This document shows positions 2,473 to 62,442 of a stretch of 64,000 nucleotides of DNA, piece by piece. Location of the stretch: contig NZ_CP151076.1 of the NCBI RefSeq assembly GCF_038096165.1, forward strand, positions 868,001 through 932,000. Reading direction: 5' to 3'. Source of the DNA: Pseudomonas sp. G.S.17 (GTDB taxonomy: Bacteria > Pseudomonadota > Gammaproteobacteria > Pseudomonadales > Pseudomonadaceae). The notes under the pieces are model-generated. The model was not told the DNA's origin. It worked only from the letters and a program-made list of their open reading frames with translations, and did no database searches. Made by a program: the position numbers and the translations under genes. The first letter of the stretch is position 1, and the number at the start of each line of letters is the position of its first letter.

Positions 2473-5400
2473 CTGTCAATTCAGAACAAACCGCATCCCT
2501 GGCGTTACGCTTTCCACTGCGCGGCAGCCAATTGATTGAAGCCAGCGCTGGCACCGGCAAGACCTTCACGATTTCCGCGTTGTATGTGCGACTTGTCCTC
2601 GGTCATGGCGACGAAAACTCCTCTTTCGGCCGTGAATTGTTACCGCCGCAGATTCTGGTAGTGACCTTCACCGACGCCGCCACCAAAGAATTGCGCGACC
2701 GGATTCGTATCCGCCTGGCCGAGGCTGCGCGGTTCTTCCGTGACGAAATCGCCGCCCCCGACGAGTTGATTGCCGAGTTGCGCGATCAATTCAGCGCCGA
2801 GCAATGGCAAGCTTGCGCCAGTCGCCTGGATATCGCAGCGCAGTGGATGGACGAAGCTGCGGTTTCGACGATTCACAGTTGGTGTCAGCGCATGCTGCGC
2901 GAGCACGCCTTCGACAGCGGCAGCCTGTTTACCCAGACGCTGGAAACCGACCACAGCGATTTGCTGGGCGAAGTGTTGCGCGATTATTGGCGGCGTTTTT
3001 GCTACCCCATGAACGGCGACGCGCTGAAGTGGGTTCGCGCGCATTGGGGTGGTCCGGCGGCGTTGTTGCCTCGGGTGCGCTCGCTGTTCGGCAGCGAACG
3101 CAACGTGCCGGATCAAGAGCCCGCCGAGCTGATCGGCGCTTCGTTGCAGCAGCGCCGTGAAGCACTCAAAACCCTGAAAGCGCCATGGATCGAATGGGCC
3201 AACGAACTGCATGTGATCTGCATGGACGGCGTGGCCTGCAAAGTGGTCGACGGTCGCAAGATGCAGGAGCGCTACTTCAAGCCTTGGTTTGAAAAGCTCA
3301 ACGCCTGGGCTGCCGATGAAGAACAGGAAGACCTGGATCTGGGCACCGGTTTCACCCGTCTGACCCCGGACGGCATTGCCGAGGCCTGGAAGAGTAATCC
3401 GCCTGCGCACCCGGCATTCGAAGCAATGGTCGAGCTGAAAGTCGCCCTCGACACGCTGCCCACACCCGACGCTGCGGTGCTGGAACATGCCGCCCATTGG
3501 GTTGGCGTGCGCTTTGAGGAGGAAAAGCGTCGTCGTGCGGAAATGGGTTTCGACGACATGCTGCTGCGCCTCGATGCGGCCTTGCAGAGCAGTGGCGGCG
3601 AACGCCTGGCGACGTTGATTCGCGAGCAGTTTCCGGTGGCGCTGATCGATGAGTTTCAGGACACCGATCCCGTGCAGTACCGGATTTTCGAGAGCATTTA
3701 CCGCCTTGAAGAAAACGACCGGGAAACCGGACTGTTTCTGATCGGCGATCCGAAGCAGGCGATCTACGCCTTTCGTGGCGCCGACATCTACACCTACCTG
3801 CGCGCGCGCCAGGCGACTACCGGGCGCTGGCACACGCTGGACACCAACTATCGCTCCAGCCATGCCATGGTCGAGGCGGTCAATCATGTGTTTCTACGTG
3901 CCGAACAGCGACCAGAAGGGCGCGGCGCATTCCTGTTCCGTCATGGCGACACCAATCCCGTGCCGTTCCTTGCCGCGCGTTCCCAAGGGCGCAAGGAAAC
4001 GCTGGAAGTCGACGGCGCAGCTTTGCCCGCGCTGAATATCTGGCAACTGCCCAGCGAACAGCCGCTTTCCGGCGTGACTTACCGGCAGCAATTGGCGGCC
4101 AGCTGCGCCAGTGAAATCGTCGCGCTGCTCAATGGCGGCCAGCAAGGGCGTGCCGGTTTCGCAGCGCCGGCCAATGAGCTGCGTGGCTTGAAGCCGGCCG
4201 ACATCGCGATTCTGGTTCGCGACGGCAAGGAAGCGCAGGCGGTGCGCGCTGAGCTGTCGGGCCGTGGTGTGCGAAGCGTTTACCTGTCCGACAAGGATTC
4301 GGTGTTCGCCGCCCAGGAAGCTCACGACCTGTTGAGTTGGCTCAAAGCCTGCGCCGAGCCGGATTCCGAGCGCACCTTGCGTGCCGCACTGGCCTGCATC
4401 ACCTTGAATCTGCCGCTGGCCGAGCTGGAGCGGCTGAATCAGGACGAACTGGCCTGGGAAGCGCGGGTTATGCAGTTTCGTGGTTATCACTTGATCTGGC
4501 GTACCCAAGGCGTGTTGCCGATGCTGCGCCGCTTGCTGCATGACTTTCATCTGCCGCAGACATTGATTGCGCGTAATGACGGCGAACGGGTGCTGACCAA
4601 CCTGCTGCACTTGTCCGAATTGCTGCAACAGGCCGCTGCCGAACTGGACGGCGAGCAAGCGCTGATTCGTCATCTGAGCGAGCATCTGGCGCTGTCCGGT
4701 CAGGCGGGTGAAGAACAGATCCTGCGACTGGAAAGCGATGAGCAACTGGTCAAGGTCGTGACCATTCACAAGTCCAAGGGCTTGCAGTATCCGCTGGTAT
4801 TTCTGCCATTCATTTGCTCTTCCAAACCCGTGGACGGCAGCCGCTTGCCGTTGCACTTCCACGACGAACAGGGCAAAGCGCAAATCAGTCTGAAACCGAC
4901 GGCGGCGTTGATCGAGCAGTCGGACAACGAGCGTCTGGCCGAAGACCTGCGCTTGCTTTACGTCGCCCTGACTCGCGCTGAGTCGGCGTGCTGGCTCGGC
5001 GTCGCGGATCTGAAACGCGGCAACGCCAACAGCTCGACGCTGCACCGCTCAGCCTTGGGTTATCTGTTGGGCGGTGGCCTGCCGCTCGCCGAGTCTGCCG
5101 GCTTGAGCCTATGGCTGCGCGACCTGGGCGAAGGCTGCTCCGGGCTGAGCATTGAAAACCTGCCCGCGCCAACCGCCGAAACATTCAGCCCGCCGCGTAA
5201 CCAGGCGACGTTGCTCGCGCCGCGCATGCCCAAGCGTCGTGCTGCCGAGAACTGGTGGATTGCGTCCTACAGCGCTTTGCGAATTGGCGACACGATTACC
5301 ACAAGCGGTGATGAATCGCCTGACAGCCCGCAAGCGCAAAAACTCTTCGATGACGAACGCCTCGATCCCGACGCGCCTCGGGAAGTGCTGGTCAGCGGCG

Positions 5401-31003: not shown

Positions 31004-31118
31004 CCGAAGGGATTAGCCAGATGGATCAGGCTGAAACTTTCAGTAACCGCGTTAAATTGACTGGGCTCGAATGGGTCGACATCCTCCCCGCCGACAAAAG
31101 GCGCTACAGGGAGGAGTC

Positions 31119-32252
31119 ATGCGCAAGGACGATCCAGAAGACCCATTCGAACGTTATATGCGAAACCGCCGACTGCCCAACGGAGGTGCTTCGTGGGCGG
31201 CGTGGAACACACCCAAAAAGCCCGAACCGGTTTACATCCAGGAAGACAAATGGCCCGCGCCAAAACCCCGCACTGATCTGGTTTTCGCCAAGTCCTGCGC
31301 GCCGGGTAACTGGTGCTCCACCGACGCCGGGACCTCCGTAGAACCGGCGTCAAACTTCGGCAAAGTAATGCTCGCGGGCGCCATGCTCCTGCCCGATGCC
31401 AGCGCTGCGGCTGCCCTCGCACTCGGCGCCGACCTGGGCCTGGGCTACATGGCCGGCAGCGGGATCATGCAACAGCGACACAGCTGGGCGATACGCGGCT
31501 TGGGCGGCCCGGCCAGCATTCTTGTCCTCGGCATGCTTCCCGAGAAAATGGGCGACGGCACGCTCTACACCGACGGCCAATTGCGCAGCATGACGCGCGC
31601 GCCAACACGGGTGCGCTTCCAGTTTCGCCAGGATCCCGATGGCGTGTTGCAGGTCTACGGCATCCACAGCAAACCGTCCGGCGACGATTCGGTTCGCACA
31701 GTGCAAGCCACGTGGAACGCCGACCGAACGGCGATGGAAGCCAAACTCAACGGAATCACGATCATCTGGACGCCAAGAGACGGACGCCTCGGCCCCATGC
31801 CACCGCTGATCTACCCTGACAACAGCGGCGCACACCTCAACAACATCCTCGTCCACCCGATCCCGGAAGACACCGACAGCCAGATCGAAGGCTTCCCCGG
31901 CGAGGACATCACCGTTGAAGATTGTATTGTGGTGTTTCCAGCGGGGGTTGGCTGGAAGTCGATGTATGTGGTGTTTGCGCGGCCGTTTGGTGGGGATCAT
32001 AGCTACCATCCGGCGCCAAAAGGACTGACAGCCTTTCCGGACGCATTGCCGGTAAAAAAGAAGTCTAGTGTTCAAGGCGGCGGTAAAAAACGTAATCGAT
32101 GGAAAGACCGTAAGGGCCGTATTTTTGAGTGGGATTATGAAAATGGTAGGGTTGAACTATACGACAGCCAAGGTAAGCATTTAGGAGAGTTTGATCCCAA
32201 CACGGGAGAACGAACAAAAGACGCCGAGCCTGGGCGTACGACACCGAAATAA
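31119..32252 (+). CDS. Pyocin-like toxin with colicin E3/cloacin-type RNase tail
   Basis: A 377-residue protein. Residues about 60-300 resemble the S-type pyocin translocation domain (for example VHPIPEDTDSQIEGFPGEDI and CIVVFPAGVGWKSMYVVF). Residues 323-377 resemble the colicin E3 ribonuclease: FEWDYENGRVELY and HLGEFDPNTGE. Against E3, the catalytic Asp and Glu are kept (Asp339, Glu346) and an Arg373 is present, but the His is Asn342. It is far shorter than secreted S pyocins and lacks a recognisable receptor-binding domain. The start follows GGGAGGAG at 31119. Three small acidic genes follow, probable immunity. It may instead be a contact-delivered or type VI effector. Confidence 0.75.
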   Translation: MRKDDPEDPFERYMRNRRLPNGGASWAAWNTPKKPEPVYIQEDKWPAPKPRTDLVFAKSCAPGNWCSTDAGTSVEPASNFGKVMLAGAMLLPDASAAAALALGADLGLGYMAGSGIMQQRHSWAIRGLGGPASILVLGMLPEKMGDGTLYTDGQLRSMTRAPTRVRFQFRQDPDGVLQVYGIHSKPSGDDSVRTVQATWNADRTAMEAKLNGITIIWTPRDGRLGPMPPLIYPDNSGAHLNNILVHPIPEDTDSQIEGFPGEDITVEDCIVVFPAGVGWKSMYVVFARPFGGDHSYHPAPKGLTAFPDALPVKKKSSVQGGGKKRNRWKDRKGRIFEWDYENGRVELYDSQGKHLGEFDPNTGERTKDAEPGRTTPK

Positions 32253-32266
32253 CCGAGGGGAAATCC

Positions 32267-32506
32267 ATGCTCTTAGAAATCACTGGTTTTTTGATAGACG
32301 ACAGCGAAGACGATTCAATCAAATTTGCGCTCGACGTGAAAACGGAATTTGAGCAAGCCGTAATGGATGTTTTGGGTTGGGAAAGCATGGAGGCCGAGGT
32401 CGTTGGTGAGCAACCTTTGACGACCACGCAAATTGAGGAAATTGCGCACGTGATAAAGGAGCCGCTGCCGCTGGATCTTGATTTGTTCATTGGCGTGCGG
32501 GCATAG
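32267..32506 (+). CDS. Small acidic protein, probable immunity protein 1
   Basis: A 79-residue acidic protein starting 15 bases after the toxin stop, with GAGGGG just before its ATG. It contains VMDVLGWESMEAEVVGEQPL followed by TTTQIEEI. The pattern GW, then LTxxQ, then a final Leu/Phe-rich strand is shared with the next two genes. Position immediately after a nuclease-type toxin, size and charge are typical of immunity proteins. It does not look like the E3 immunity protein. I cannot name the family with certainty. Confidence 0.6.
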   Translation: MLLEITGFLIDDSEDDSIKFALDVKTEFEQAVMDVLGWESMEAEVVGEQPLTTTQIEEIAHVIKEPLPLDLDLFIGVRA

Positions 32507-32513
32507 CGAAGCG

Positions 32514-32756
32514 ATGGTATTTATCTTGATCAGTGGTTTTTATCCGGAACCCAATCCGGATAACTCATTGCAGTATGAAAAAGATGTGCCCCCAGAGTTA
32601 GAGATGAGGGTGCTTTCAGCAATTGGATGGGAGTCCTCGGCGGATGTACCTGTCGGTGAAAACGATCTAACCAGTGAACAGGCGGCTGCGGTCTTGAGAG
32701 TGCTCGGTGAGCCGGTCAGGTCTGACTTGATGTATAGCGTCGGGCTTTGCAGGTAG
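32514..32756 (+). CDS. Small acidic protein, probable immunity protein 2
   Basis: An 80-residue paralogue of its neighbours: ISGFYPEPNPDNSLQYE, then VLSAIGWESSADVPVGENDL, then TSEQAAAVLRVLGEPV. It starts at an ATG eight bases after the previous stop, without a clear ribosome site, so it probably relies on coupling. Role inferred from family likeness and location behind the pyocin-like toxin; it may protect against a related rival toxin. Confidence 0.55.
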   Translation: MVFILISGFYPEPNPDNSLQYEKDVPPELEMRVLSAIGWESSADVPVGENDLTSEQAAAVLRVLGEPVRSDLMYSVGLCR

Positions 32757-32782
32757 GTCGCCAGTGAAGGAGCATCTGGTCC

Positions 32783-33016
32783 GTGAAATACATTATTGAA
32801 GCGTTCAACAAAGAATCGGAGCTCTTGAGTTTTGAGGTGATTCTGCCCGAAGGCAGTGATTCGCAACTCGCGCAAATCATGGGCTGGTCGGTACCTCAGC
32901 GTGGCGATGAAGGTTATGACCTTACCCCTAACCAAGCGGCGGCAATTGAGGCCTTGGCGGGCAAACAGTTTTACGACAGCAACCACGTTTTCCAGCTGAC
33001 CTGCAATGTCGATTGA
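32783..33016 (+). CDS. Small acidic protein, probable immunity protein 3 (possibly DUF7683-like)
   Basis: A 77-residue paralogue: MKYIIEAFNKESELLSFEVI, QIMGWSVPQRGDEGYDLTPN, QAAAIEALAGKQFYD and the end FQLTCNVD. It starts at GTG 32783, with AAGGAG ten bases upstream. Sequences like this occur in Pseudomonas annotated as DUF7683; I recall that from memory only. It is the most divergent of the three and closes the toxin-immunity cluster before a block of REPINs. Confidence 0.55.
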   Translation: MKYIIEAFNKESELLSFEVILPEGSDSQLAQIMGWSVPQRGDEGYDLTPNQAAAIEALAGKQFYDSNHVFQLTCNVD

Positions 33017-33044: not shown

Positions 33045-33472
33045 CTCGTTGGAGCGAGGCTTGCCCGCGAAGGCGGTGTCTTGAATTCGGAAAAATGGCC
33101 GGATGTACTGGCCTCTTCGCGGGCAAGCCTCGCTCCAACGGAATTTGCCGCTCTTGTAGGAGCGAATTCATTCGCGAGGCGATTCATTTGTTTTCGCAGG
33201 CCCAACGCCTCGCCAACAAGTTGGCTCCTACAGCATTTCGGCTACTCATCATTGCGGTGTCACACCATCTCGTTGGAGCTAGGCTTGCCCGCGAAGGCGG
33301 TGTTTTGAGTTTGGAAAAGTGGGCGGATGTACCGACCTCTTCGCGGGCAAGCCTCGCTCCAACGGATTTGCGCCGTCCTTGTAGGAGCGAATTTATTCGC
33401 GAGGCGATTCATTTGTTTTAGCAGGACTGACGCCTCGCCAACAAGTTGGCTCTCATCAAACCACCGCAGAAG
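33045..33472. repeat. Tandem duplication of a 224-bp unit holding two different REPINs
   Basis: The unit starts with CTCGTTGGAG at 33045 and again at 33269, a period of 224 bases. Each unit contains one REPIN with stem GCGAGGC-TT-GCCCGC, then one of another type, whose left arm has CGAAT-TC-ATTCG (first copy) or CGAAT-TT-ATTCG (second copy) and whose right arm has CCAAC-AA-GTTGG. The second unit loses its last bases (GGCTCTCA in place of GGCTCCTACA). No gene is present here; the in-frame readings through it are repeat translations. Confidence 0.9.
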
Positions 33473-33493
33473 TATTTGATCTGTGCGGGAAAT

Positions 33494-33582
33494 GTGGGAC
33501 CGGATTTATCCGGGAAGAGGCCGGGTCATTCACTGCATCTCGTCGTCAGAAATACCGCCTTCCCGGATAAATCCGGTCCCAC
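33494..33582. repeat. REPIN, stem type CCGGAT-TT-ATCCGG
   Basis: GTGGGACCGGATTTATCCGG on the left and the inverse (ending GGTCCCAC) on the right, about 40 bases apart. It follows the duplicated block and precedes the C4-type leader of the DUF3077 gene. Confidence 0.9.
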
Positions 33583-33611
33583 CAGGCGCACCAGCGCTAA
33601 CCATTCGATAA

Positions 33612-33634
33612 GCAGGCGTTTTTTTTGCGCCTGC
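33612..33634 (+). other. Hairpin with T-rich loop just upstream of the C4-type RNA
   Basis: GCAGGCG, an eight-T plus G loop, then CGCCTGC: a seven-base-pair perfect stem 14 bases before the first strand of the C4-type element. It could be the end of upstream transcription or a protein site. An inverted repeat lies at the same relative place before the second C4-type element in this window. Confidence 0.5.
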
Positions 33635-33647
33635 GGCGTCGAGTTAT

Positions 33648-33722
33648 GGCAGCTGTGCGCGGGACATCTTCGGGTGTGCCGGGTACCTGGAGTCCCGGTC
33701 GGCCAACCTGCGTACAGCTGTC
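33648..33722 (+). ncRNA. C4-type antisense RNA leader of the DUF3077 gene
   Basis: Outer stem: 33648-33663 (GGCAGCTGTGCGCGGG) pairs all 16 bases with 33707-33722 (CCTGCGTACAGCTGTC), using three G-U pairs. Inside are hairpin ACATC-TTCG-GGTGT (33664-33677) and hairpin CCGGG/CCCGG (33679-33698), whose loop holds CCTGGAGT. That loop is an exact complement of ACTCCAGG at 33763-33770, overlapping the ribosome site CCAGGAG of the DUF3077 gene. The single-stranded CGGCCAA (33700-33706) is an exact complement of TTGGCCG at 33735-33741. This two-site layout is that of phage P1/P7 C4 antisense RNA. It is expected to sequester the start of the downstream gene. Confidence 0.85.
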
Positions 33723-33778
33723 ACCCTGATTTGCTTGGCCGCAATACGATGACAGCTCCCCAACTCCAGGAGCAGCAA

Positions 33779-34081
33779 ATGAAGCAATCGTTCTTTTCCA
33801 ACCAACCACAAACCATCAAAACCCTCGGCACCATCACCTTCTCCACCTGCGGTGAAACCAGGCAGCCGCTGTTCCGCATAAACCCTGAAATCCCCATCGA
33901 ATCCGCCCTGGAACATGCCTCGAATTTATTGGCGTGTGCCAGCGAAATCAGCCTCGACGCGGCGCTGGGCGATGCAGGCAAACAGAGTGTCTGGGCTGCG
34001 CACTATCTGAGTGAGATGGCGAAGGCAATTGTTGATGATGCGTTGGCGAGTAGCGCTGCGGCTCGATACGCTGAAGGATGA
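33779..34081 (+). CDS. DUF3077 family small protein under C4-type RNA control
   Basis: A 100-residue protein (MKQSFFSNQPQTIKTLGTIT) with a core ESALEHASNLLACASEISLD and WAAHYLSEMAKAIVDDALAS, which fits DUF3077, a Pseudomonas family of unknown function. The ATG at 33779 follows CCAGGAGCAGCAA; the open frame extending to 33446 only translates REPINs and the RNA leader. The last codons run into a truncated REP. Its ribosome site is the predicted target of the C4-type RNA just upstream. A related shorter protein with the same leader type is at 62096-62305. Confidence 0.75.
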   Translation: MKQSFFSNQPQTIKTLGTITFSTCGETRQPLFRINPEIPIESALEHASNLLACASEISLDAALGDAGKQSVWAAHYLSEMAKAIVDDALASSAAARYAEG

Positions 34082-34089
34082 TTCGTACC

Positions 34090-34242
34090 GGCCTCATCGC
34101 GGGCAAGCCTCGCTCCAACGGGATTTTCGCCGTTCTTGTCGCGAGCTTATGTGGGAGCGAGCTTGCTCGCGAAGGCGGTGTTTGGGATTCGGAAAAGCGG
34201 GCGGATGTACGGCCTTTTTTCGGGCTAGCCTGGCTCCTGCGG
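34090..34242. repeat. Lone REP tail plus a degenerate mixed REPIN
   Basis: An unpaired tail with CGCGGGCAAGCCTCGCTCC (to about 34119) abuts the DUF3077 stop. From 34151 a GTGGGAG head with stem GCGAGC-TT-GCTCGC is followed by a decayed partner TCGGGCTAGCCTGGCTCCTG (about 34220-34239), whose stem belongs to another type. The remaining bases to 34251 hold nothing else. Confidence 0.8.
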
Positions 34243-47653: not shown

Positions 47654-48895
47654 ATGAATGTGAATAAATTGAGCGTCCTCGCCCTGGCGATGGCGGCAGG
47701 CACTGTGCAACCTGTTTTTGCTGAATCCCAGGCGGATGCAACCGGGTTTATCGAAGGTTCGAAGTTGAGCGTCAAGGCGCGCAACATGTACATGAACCGT
47801 GATAACCGCGCCACCAGCGCAACCCAGGCTTACGGAGAAGAATGGGCGCAAGGCTTCATCGGCAGTTTCGAATCCGGTTTCACCCAGGGCGTGGTCGGTT
47901 TCGGTATCGATGCATTGGGCCTGTACGGTTTGAAGCTCGATACCGGTGACGGCCGTACCGGCGGCGGCACGGGCTTGCTGGAACAAGACAGCAGCGGCGC
48001 GAAAGACAACTACGGCTATGCCGGCGCAGCGGTAAAAATGCGCGTCTCGAAAACCGTGGCCAAGTTCGGCGACCAATATGTCAACAACCCGGTATTCGCA
48101 ACTTCCGACAGCCGTCTGCTGCCGGAAACCGCTCAGGGCCTGTTGATTACCAGCAATGAAATCGACAACCTGACGCTGCAAGGCGGCCACTTCACTGCAT
48201 TGAAAAACCGTAACCAGAGCAATCATGACAGCGCTCACCTGACCAGCATCAACTTCGGTGGCGGTCTGTACAAATTCAACAAGAATCTGTCCAGCAGCCT
48301 GTACTACTCGGACGTTGAAGATTACTGGCGCAAATACTACGGCAGCCTGACCTACGCCATGGCGTTGACTCCCAATGACACCCTGAAGTTTGACTTAAAT
48401 GCGTACGACACCAAAAGCGTCGGCAAGGAGTTGGGCGGGGAGCTGGACAACACCATCTGGAGCCTGACCGCCGGTTACACCTTCGGCGCGCACACCTTCC
48501 AGATCGGTCGTCAGCAAGTTAACGGCACCGGCGACTACAAGTACGGCGTTGACGGCAACAGCACTGTTTTCGTCGGCAACTCCATTCAGTATTCCGACTT
48601 CAACTATGCCAACGAAAAATCCTGGCAGGCCCGTTACGACATCAACATGGCTACCTATGGTGTGCCGGGTTTGACGTTCCTCGCACGCTATGTGAAGGGT
48701 GAAGATTTCACCACGGCTACCGGCGACAACGGCAAGGCGTGGGAGCGCGATTTCGATGGAAAATACGTGGTTCAAGCAGGCCCGGCCAAAGACCTGAGCT
48801 TGCGCGTGCGTCACGCCAGCTATCGCAGCTCGGATCGCGGCGGCGAAATCGACGAAATCCGCGTCATTGTCGAATACCCGCTGAGCATCCTGTAA
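47654..48895 (+). CDS. OprD-family outer-membrane porin
   Basis: A 413-residue substrate-specific porin of Pseudomonas. Signal peptide MNVNKLSVLALAMAAGTVQP then VFA; family blocks GFIEGSKLSVKARNMYMNRD, EEWAQGFIGSFESGFTQGVV, FGDQYVNNPVFATSDSRLLP and the C-terminal strand EIRVIVEYPLSIL. OprD porins take up basic amino acids, aromatic acids or similar solutes. It stands after the aldolase/dehydrogenase pair and before a strong terminator; it may serve that pathway but is separately placed behind a REPIN. Confidence 0.94.
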   Translation: MNVNKLSVLALAMAAGTVQPVFAESQADATGFIEGSKLSVKARNMYMNRDNRATSATQAYGEEWAQGFIGSFESGFTQGVVGFGIDALGLYGLKLDTGDGRTGGGTGLLEQDSSGAKDNYGYAGAAVKMRVSKTVAKFGDQYVNNPVFATSDSRLLPETAQGLLITSNEIDNLTLQGGHFTALKNRNQSNHDSAHLTSINFGGGLYKFNKNLSSSLYYSDVEDYWRKYYGSLTYAMALTPNDTLKFDLNAYDTKSVGKELGGELDNTIWSLTAGYTFGAHTFQIGRQQVNGTGDYKYGVDGNSTVFVGNSIQYSDFNYANEKSWQARYDINMATYGVPGLTFLARYVKGEDFTTATGDNGKAWERDFDGKYVVQAGPAKDLSLRVRHASYRSSDRGGEIDEIRVIVEYPLSIL

Positions 48896-62095: not shown

Positions 62096-62305
62096 CTATC
62101 GCGCTTCGACGCTCGTCAACGATCGCTCAACCAGACCCTGCGCCATTTCGACCAGATGCATCACCGAACACGCCAGGTCGCGTTTCTGGCCGGTGAGTTG
62201 ATCGCAGGTTTCGTAGGCGGTGGCGGCTGCGCAACGCAGCAGTTCTGACACGCGCACCAGGTTTTCTTCGAGGTTCATGGGCGGTTCTGGGGCATTGTTG
62301 ATCAA
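62096..62305 (-). CDS. Small DUF3077-like protein under C4-type RNA control
   Basis: A 69-residue protein ending in a helix pair: EENLVRVSELLRCAAATAYE and HLVEMAQGLVERSLTSV. The spacing of Leu-Leu-x-Cys-Ala and Glu-Met-Ala-x-x-Leu-Val matches the DUF3077 protein at 33779-34081, so I treat the two as relatives. The start is a TTG at 62305, nine bases after AAGGAAGG; an ATG at 62278 is the fallback and the open frame to 62347 overlaps a C4 target site. It is preceded by a C4-type RNA on the same strand. Function unknown. Confidence 0.68.
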   Translation of the reverse strand: MINNAPEPPMNLEENLVRVSELLRCAAATAYETCDQLTGQKRDLACSVMHLVEMAQGLVERSLTSVEAR

Positions 62306-62359
62306 GATAGAATTCCTTCCTTTTGCGCCAACACCTGTCGCTCTCACGCGGTAGAGGGT

Positions 62360-62432
62360 GGCAGCTATGCACAGGGTGAGAGACCGGCAGAAGGGACCCG
62401 GTCAGACCGAAGTCTGCCTGCACACAGCTGCC
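62360..62432 (-). ncRNA. Second C4-type antisense RNA leader
   Basis: On the minus strand, GGCAGCTGTGTGCAGG (62432-62417) pairs over all 16 bases with CCTGTGCATAGCTGCC (62375-62360), using three wobble pairs. Inside are CAGAC-TTCG-GTCTG (62416-62403) and ACCGG/CCGGT (62402-62383), whose loop GTCCCTTCTG can pair by six bases with the ribosome site GGAAGG at 62320-62315. The single-stranded CTCTCAC (62382-62376) is an exact complement of GTGAGAG at 62347-62341. It has the same layout and the same opening GTTATGGCAGCTGTG as the first element, with different loop sequences that still match their own gene. Confidence 0.83.
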
Positions 62433-62442
62433 ATAACGCATT

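Follow-up and report, generated by a model that had tools for sequence, protein, structure and literature searches.

A C4-type antisense RNA before a DUF3077 gene on a Pseudomonas chromosome, within a set of near-orthogonal C4-target pairs

What is known in detail of C4-type antisense control comes from a few phages. In the P1 record, the sites a1 (48255-48261) and b1 (48269-48276) lie ahead of the C4 RNA (48343-48419), which is followed by a2 (48423-48429), b2 (48452-48459) and the icd gene, starting at 48470. The Rfam model of this RNA, RF01695, scores 68.8 bits on P1 and 74.9 bits on the cI region of P4, the latter region also matching the isrK model at 60.8 bits. According to the accessible part of one report, P4 CI leads to transcription termination and short IsrK turns translation on (PMC4825925). 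C4 is listed for Proteobacteria as well as for phages in the available part of Weinberg et al. 2010 (PMC2864571). In Acinetobacter baumannii, the accessible text of another study describes 21 sequences of Group 1 C4-like sRNAs with a variable targeting loop, for which RNA-seq suggests processing from longer transcripts (PMC5320573). We report here that C4 RNAs are highly repeated on the chromosomes of one genus, Pseudomonas, starting from a copy that precedes a DUF3077 gene.

The C4 RNA at 33642-33728 and its predicted target gene

The window analysed, a stretch of 64,000 nt from the chromosome of Pseudomonas sp. G.S.17, was searched whole with the RF01695 covariance model. A forward-strand match (E 2.1e-13) was obtained at a locus with the following features:

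33642..33728, + strand: C4 antisense RNA, match to RF01695 at 77.4 bits for a cut-off (gathering score) of 45
33647..33663, + strand: outer stem, 5' strand, pairing with 33707-33723 (17 contiguous pairs, three of them G-U)
33707..33723, + strand: outer stem, 3' strand (Rfam alignment and pair count)
33664..33677, + strand: first inner hairpin, ACATC-TTCG-GGTGT (Rfam alignment)
33678..33699, + strand: second inner hairpin, GCCGG-loop-CCGGT (Rfam alignment)
33686..33693, + strand: antisense site b', CCTGGAGT, in the loop of the second hairpin; exact complement of 33763-33770
33700..33706, + strand: antisense site a', CGGCCAA, an unpaired linker; exact complement of 33735-33741
33648..33725, + strand: predicted mature C4 RNA, 78 nt, its ends placed by analogy with P1 C4 from the record, the cmscan match and the sequences
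33735..33741, + strand: target site a2, TTGGCCG, pairing with a' and placed in the order as P1 a2
33763..33770, + strand: target site b2, ACTCCAGG, overlapping the Shine-Dalgarno AGGAG at 33768-33772 and placed in the order as P1 b2
33779..34081, + strand: candidate target gene, DUF3077 protein of 100 aa (Pfam PF11275, 101 bits for a cut-off of 21)

The initial annotation of this DNA had proposed a C4-type RNA whose 16-bp outer stem encloses a TTCG hairpin plus another one; the loop of the latter would be exactly complementary to a site over the Shine-Dalgarno of a DUF3077 gene, and an unpaired CGGCCAA exactly complementary to a TTGGCCG further upstream of this gene. The membership of the RNA in the C4 family, with a score above the curated cut-off, the nature of the next gene and the two exact pairings ahead of it (7 nt for a'-a2 and 8 nt for b'-b2) are all confirmed by computation. 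So is the architecture of a long outer stem and two hairpins, found in the Rfam alignment, which covers all 87 positions, except that the stem counts 17 pairs. In an energy-only fold of 33640-33800 (stability z -2.0, 7 of 200 shuffles being equally stable), the outer stem forms and the inner pairs differ from the two hairpins as drawn, so that the latter are taken from the Rfam alignment.

The initial annotation had also seen in this locus the two-site logic of P1, and the order of the sites (C4, a2, b2, gene) is indeed that of the P1 record. The a2-b2 gap is 21 nt long, against 22 nt in P1, and b2 lies 8 nt from the start codon, against 10. From the end of C4 to a2 the distance is 9 nt, counted from the predicted end, against 3 nt in P1.

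Compared with either of two close relatives, the DUF3077 gene of the window has a dN/dS of 0.28; for another target group, in which 11 loci were inspected and five ORFs found, the 10 pairwise values have a median of 0.17. Judged from these coding sequences, the DUF3077 protein is under purifying selection. Its AlphaFold2 model displays two helices with a mean pLDDT of 71, residues 1-25 being unreliable, and a structure search of the PDB with this model gave no match at E <0.001. In a furfural-evolved strain of P. putida, a DUF3077 pseudogene regained its frame, the cause being left unproven in the accessible part of the report (PMC9630843).

Tests of the neighbouring genes in the window identified an aldehyde dehydrogenase and a dehydrogenase of the hydroxyisobutyrate type, along with an S-type pyocin accompanied by small ORFs, and metabolic genes. 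The absence of a phage gene nearby, as stated in the initial annotation, agrees with our search, which found no phage structural gene among nine neighbouring proteins. In a PHROG scan of ten proteins, the neighbours matched solely enzyme-like or uncharacterised families. At 31071-32252 and 32267-33016, an S-type pyocin with a Cytotoxic domain precedes small ORFs that may be immunity genes, along with a DUF7683 gene.

We consider it likely that this locus pairs a C4 antisense RNA with the gene it controls, as a device of phage type retained by a bacterial chromosome, and that it blocks the translation of DUF3077.

A genus-wide set of C4 RNAs and the specificity of their pairing

The initial annotation had seen in the locus a domesticated or parallel use of C4 control. 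It is not a lone case: the C4 RNA at 33642-33728 is one of 13 C4 matches of its genome, all over cut-off, and belongs to a genus-wide set. A second one is found in the window itself:

62354..62438, - strand: second C4 RNA of the window, 71.4 bits
62341..62347, - strand: its a2 site, GTGAGAG, exact complement of its a' CTCTCAC
62096..62305, - strand: its candidate target gene, DUF6124, 69 aa from a TTG or 60 aa from the ATG at 62278

The b pairing of this second cassette is weak; the 60-aa version of its target matches PF19619 at 48.4 bits. Among 59 genomes sampled from the genus, 54, the window's included, have a C4 at E <=0.001 (53 over cut-off), at least 43 have four C4s or more and at least 37 have ten or more. 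The genome termed G049 carries 55 of them, 52 being over cut-off. In the phylum-wide sample, a C4 match is present in 62 of 398 genomes. These numbers per genome are lower bounds, 61 candidates having been scored per genome in the genus scan and 10 in the phylum scan. No match was obtained in the 14 control genomes of the own-genome, genus and phylum scans. Some cassettes lie in tandem, about 0.8-2.4 kb apart (L080/L081 and L077/L083 in G049; L231). In P. fluorescens, the accessible part of Silby et al. 2009 describes the intergenic repeat R178, 101 bp long with internal inverted repeats (PMC2718517), and this repeat may be a C4 RNA.

The specificity of the pairing was analysed by comparing loops with the 100 nt, and linkers with the 60 nt, that follow their own C4 and all other C4s. 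Among 112 loci, 111 were used (L029, on a short contig, was dropped) and reduced to 97 distinct ones. For these, the mean score on the own target is 19.8 for the loop versus 14.0 with permuted partners (z 23.5), and 17.4 versus 12.1 for the linker (z 22.6). Out of 10,000 permutations, the best gave 15.1 and 13.2, respectively, below both own-target means. The same holds for 29 loci of the phylum-wide scan (z 15.9 for the loop and 9.6 for the linker, 5,000 permutations). The covariation of antisense and target sites, proposed as a check in the initial annotation, is thus observed across 97 loci as well as within the single cassette family described below. Repression of DUF3077 by C4 is supported by this covariation, a signature read from sequence. 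As for stems formed around a2 (z 6.5, though the null was itself high) and b2 (CTCC...GGAG in 32 of 78), their signal is too weak to lean on.

Within one genome, the own target is the best one for 12 of the 13 C4s of the window's genome and for 44 of 55 in G049, and it ranks first by duplex energy for 11 of the former 13. Strong foreign matches at both sites concern 1 of 156 pairs in the window's genome and 5 of 2970 in G049. Our computation therefore shows that the C4-target sets are near-orthogonal in these two genomes. For the C4 at 33642-33728, the own target is the best among the 13, with a summed duplex energy of -28.7 kcal/mol; since the target of L001 comes second at -24.8 kcal/mol, some cross-talk is possible. 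The genome contains one further exact copy of the a2-b2 pattern of this C4, at G000:C1:2740378-2740414.

Copies of the own address are also present in the 120 nt upstream of C4 (z 20.3 for a and 17.2 for b, 97 distinct loci). The Rfam family c4-a1b1 corresponds to this upstream element and isrK to its version with a terminator; over cut-off, the former is found in 14 of 29 DUF3077 loci and the latter in 3. One could assume on this basis that C4 and its leader act in cis alone, as an attenuator or as a fold sequestering the ribosome-binding site, without any free antisense RNA. Such a role would suit the three isrK matches, the proximity of C4, a2-b2 and the gene, the ORF start lying mostly 40-60 nt after the C4 match, and the runs of at least five T observed within 70 nt upstream of C4 in 60 of 139 loci. 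It is nevertheless improbable in our opinion, because the C4 body folds as that of P1, for which the annotation gives a separate RNA of 77 nt binding a2/b2 (so too in the accessible part of PMC5320573), and because the C4-like RNAs of A. baumannii appear from RNA-seq in the same text to be released from longer transcripts. We thus favour an antisense RNA acting on the translation of its target.

The copy at 33642-33728 departs from this arrangement. No a1 was found upstream of it, and it is the only one of the 13 C4s of the genome without any match in that search, those of L004 and L012 being short or oddly placed. The place is occupied by another element:

33493..33584, no strand assigned: dispersed REP-type inverted repeat, in place of the upstream leader of the relatives (probable promoter, a1 and most of b1); 72 matches in the genome

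Many of the 72 matches of this 92-nt stretch are partial. The closest relatives of the locus are L183, from Pseudomonas sp. ICMP 561, and L184, from P. folii, both of which have a1 CTTGGCCG and b1 ACTCCAGG just upstream. Their homology to the window begins at 33582, at the inner edge of the repeat, and ends near 34060. As nothing else in their 3-kb flanks matches the window, what they have in common with it is the cassette and not the region. The third named relative, L185 from P. spelaei, has a C4 of 78.8 bits with a different address, so that a C4 lies upstream in all three named relatives found. Since the a1-b1 copy of a complete P1-type cassette (a1-b1, C4, a2-b2) is absent at 33642-33728, we class this locus as a C4 RNA with its target and not as a complete cassette. 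Its promoter was probably lost together with a1, to judge from the relatives. A scan for sigma-70-like sites at 33200-34150 found none, but says little, for it was equally empty upstream of L183; likewise, no terminator was found by scanning between the repeat and C4. The expression of this copy is uncertain, the dispersed repeat having replaced the a1-b1 site and probably the promoter, and the copy may depend on a promoter elsewhere or be heading for decay.

The turnover of the addresses can be followed in one family of cassettes. The L055-type cassette was recovered in other genomes, and 22 of 30 fetched loci, each from a different genome and spanning C4 and gene, were used, the partial matches L199, L201, L202, L203, L207, L216, L217 and L218 being left out. 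In these loci, the sequence of a1 and a2 is either CTGATAA or CTGAGAA, a' being the matching complement, with a three-way agreement in 22 of 22; the sites were labelled with a pattern permitting the two observed forms, and all 22 fitted. On a tree of the downstream gene (about 280 nt, no support values), parsimony gives six address switches. The 22 loci are sorted by both flanks into 13 groups and thus represent one cassette family and not one orthologous place. In three of the groups (L189/L190; L197/L204/L213; L205/L206/L209), both addresses are found at one chromosomal site. Elsewhere, different addresses between the same flanks were also noticed for L060, L121 and L127 and for L058 and L119; L098 and L111 have different addresses as well, with a match of the upstream flank alone.

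Genes behind the C4 RNAs and the link to phages

A first ORF was found at 135 of 141 C4 loci; the six others have none by the rule used, a DUF3077-like ORF lying further downstream in four of them. Grouped by BLAST linkage, the 135 ORFs comprise 66 of the DUF3077/DUF6124 group (8 of them verified by Pfam), 19 members of a family of 52-aa proteins, 14 of another whose proteins have about 90 aa, 12 that fall with Bro-N and 4 Icd-like ones; the remainder are two pairs and 16 singletons. Family models identify Bro-N for L008 and L010, AntA for L143, HTH_35 for L133 and an Icd-like protein for L131. At 17 of the 19 loci of the 52-aa family, a second ATG overlaps the stop codon of the ORF as ATGA, which recalls the 4-nt overlap of P1 icd and ant1. 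The second ORF is DUF3077 in L031, and another one tested gave no family.

The reverse test was carried out on 29 DUF3077 genes, the best per genome from a search of 40 genomes with the window's own left aside. A C4 over cut-off lies upstream on the same strand for 26 of the 29, and a C4-like sequence below cut-off at L230; none was seen at the matches L249 and L251, from same-genus genomes. The latter two, DUF3077/DUF6124-like genes without C4, are close to PrrF RNA genes, and they are perhaps a cellular branch of the family. DUF3077 is absent from the four of the 40 genomes without any C4 (G013, G020, G027 and G028) and also from six with C4. Among the nine DUF6124-type genes of the window's genome, no C4 was detected at three, namely L049 (323764), L050 (986121) and L052 (1268338). 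A sub-cut-off match resembling a1-b1 persists near the gene in L050 and L052, the pattern that a deletion of C4 would leave.

A different reading would make the cassettes type I-like toxin-antitoxin or addiction modules, with C4 as the RNA antitoxin and the small protein as a growth inhibitor. The antisense RNA otherwise known for SymE is a different one. At L147, in a genome of the same class (G341), an ORF starting 48 nt after C4 matches the Pfam family SymE_toxin at 58.4 bits, and the loop and linker of this C4 match sites before it. Similarly, the Icd-like gene of L131, also from a same-class genome, is preceded by a C4, and the P1 record describes icd as an inhibitor of cell division. On the other hand, the DUF6124 genes of L049 and L050 are open, with a start codon and no detectable C4, which poorly fits a strong toxin unless they are silent. 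Furthermore, a PADLOC search of five target proteins gave no match, and a comparison of DUF3077 with Pfam and NCBIfam revealed no toxin family. We therefore regard such modules as unlikely and retain a C4 RNA controlling its neighbouring gene.

The initial annotation described DUF3077 as a chromosomal family. This is true of the gene studied here, which lies on the chromosome, but relatives are also carried by a viral contig and included in two PHROG families. On this IMG/VR contig (L219), positions 4670-5282 hold a C4 of 55.1 bits with DUF3077, and an upstream a1-b1 match falls just under cut-off (45.3 versus 46.7). Terminase- and portal-like ORFs, the latter named by eye, are found nearby, so that the pair possibly occupies a cargo position beside packaging-like genes. 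The cassette is thus carried by phages on at least some occasions, in line with a phage origin. In the other three of the four IMG/VR contigs with a DUF3077 relative, no C4 was found. Single-sequence searches of 50,697 phage records gave no match for DUF3077, DUF6124 or the 90-aa family, one match for the 52-aa family and 428 records for Bro-N. The relatives in PHROG profiles and IMG/VR led us to reject the statement that DUF3077 is absent from phages. A plasmid search gave one DUF3077 match (38% identity, E 3e-6). The phage match of the 52-aa C4 target family, with 72% identity, is in Pseudomonas phage phiAH14b (KU708005.1, 4101-4250).

One would also wonder whether the cassettes are simply decaying prophage remnants, with a pairing that was inherited and has no function now. 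C4 control is a phage device, C4-DUF3077 sits on a viral contig, the target-family ORF is missing at some copies, e.g. L004, L074 and L105, and the copy at 33642-33728 has lost its a1. We nonetheless find this very improbable. The three-way agreement is complete in the 22 loci of the L055 family despite the switches, three of which fall within same-site groups; up to 55 copies per genome have nearly private addresses; and the dN/dS values given above are low. Since decay would show as dN/dS near 1 and broken pairing, and the opposite is seen, it can apply to single copies only.

Proposed mechanism and comparison with known systems

We infer processing, repression in the cell and the role of a1-b1 as follows. 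The leader transcript would be cut, probably by RNase P as in P1, giving a C4 RNA of about 78 nt. The b' loop would then pair with b2 over the Shine-Dalgarno, aided by the pairing of the a' linker with a2, and translation of DUF3077 would be blocked. In intact cassettes, a1-b1 would be a third copy of the address, probably a decoy or an attenuation site relieving the switch, as the parallels with Gifsy-1 IsrK and P4 seqA suggest. As most cassettes have their own address, many of them can run side by side with little cross-talk.

A broader hypothesis, which we put forward tentatively, is that tens of C4 cassettes, each addressed to itself by a private two-part code, form a network scattered over Pseudomonas genomes. 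The codes would turn over fast and in step, a1, a' and a2 changing together and one chromosomal site bearing different codes. Divergence itself could be selected, either to avoid cross-talk or to recognise or exclude phages or elements with a matching cassette. The targeting code can be read, and specificity, cross-talk and RNA-RNA co-evolution thus become accessible to study with dozens of natural pairs per genome. The link described here also offers a first regulatory handle on DUF3077 and DUF6124, two families without known function, and in another genus C4 is linked to a SymE-type gene.

A parallel can be drawn with several known systems. The P1/P7 C4 system (RF01695, its a1-b1 element being RF03163) shares with our locus the RNA family, the two-site pairing and the position of b' on the Shine-Dalgarno. 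Unlike P1/P7, the cassettes are carried by bacterial chromosomes in up to 55 copies per genome, their targets are DUF3077/DUF6124 and other small genes instead of icd-ant, and the copy at 33642-33728 is without a1-b1. Nor is the locus an immunity system of the P1 immI type: DUF3077 stands in the place of the phage antirepressor operon, among metabolic and bacteriocin genes. P4 CI (seqA - CI - seqC) and IsrK of Gifsy-1 (IsrK/STnc1160/orf45-anrP) resemble the cassettes in having targets on both sides of the antisense RNA; unlike them, the copy at 33642-33728 has no a1 that we could find, and the scan between repeat and C4 gave no terminator. With the Group 1 RNAs of A. baumannii, as described in the accessible part of that study, the Pseudomonas set has in common many RNAs of C4 fold in one chromosome. 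The targets of Group 1 are left open there, whereas most C4s of Pseudomonas have a matching target directly downstream.

In the literature searched, from which subscription journals were mostly absent, we found no report linking C4 to DUF3077 or DUF6124, nor any of a set of adjacent, nearly orthogonal C4 targets. While C4 in Proteobacteria was already known, its association with DUF3077/DUF6124 and the series of neighbouring, near-orthogonal targets appear to be new.
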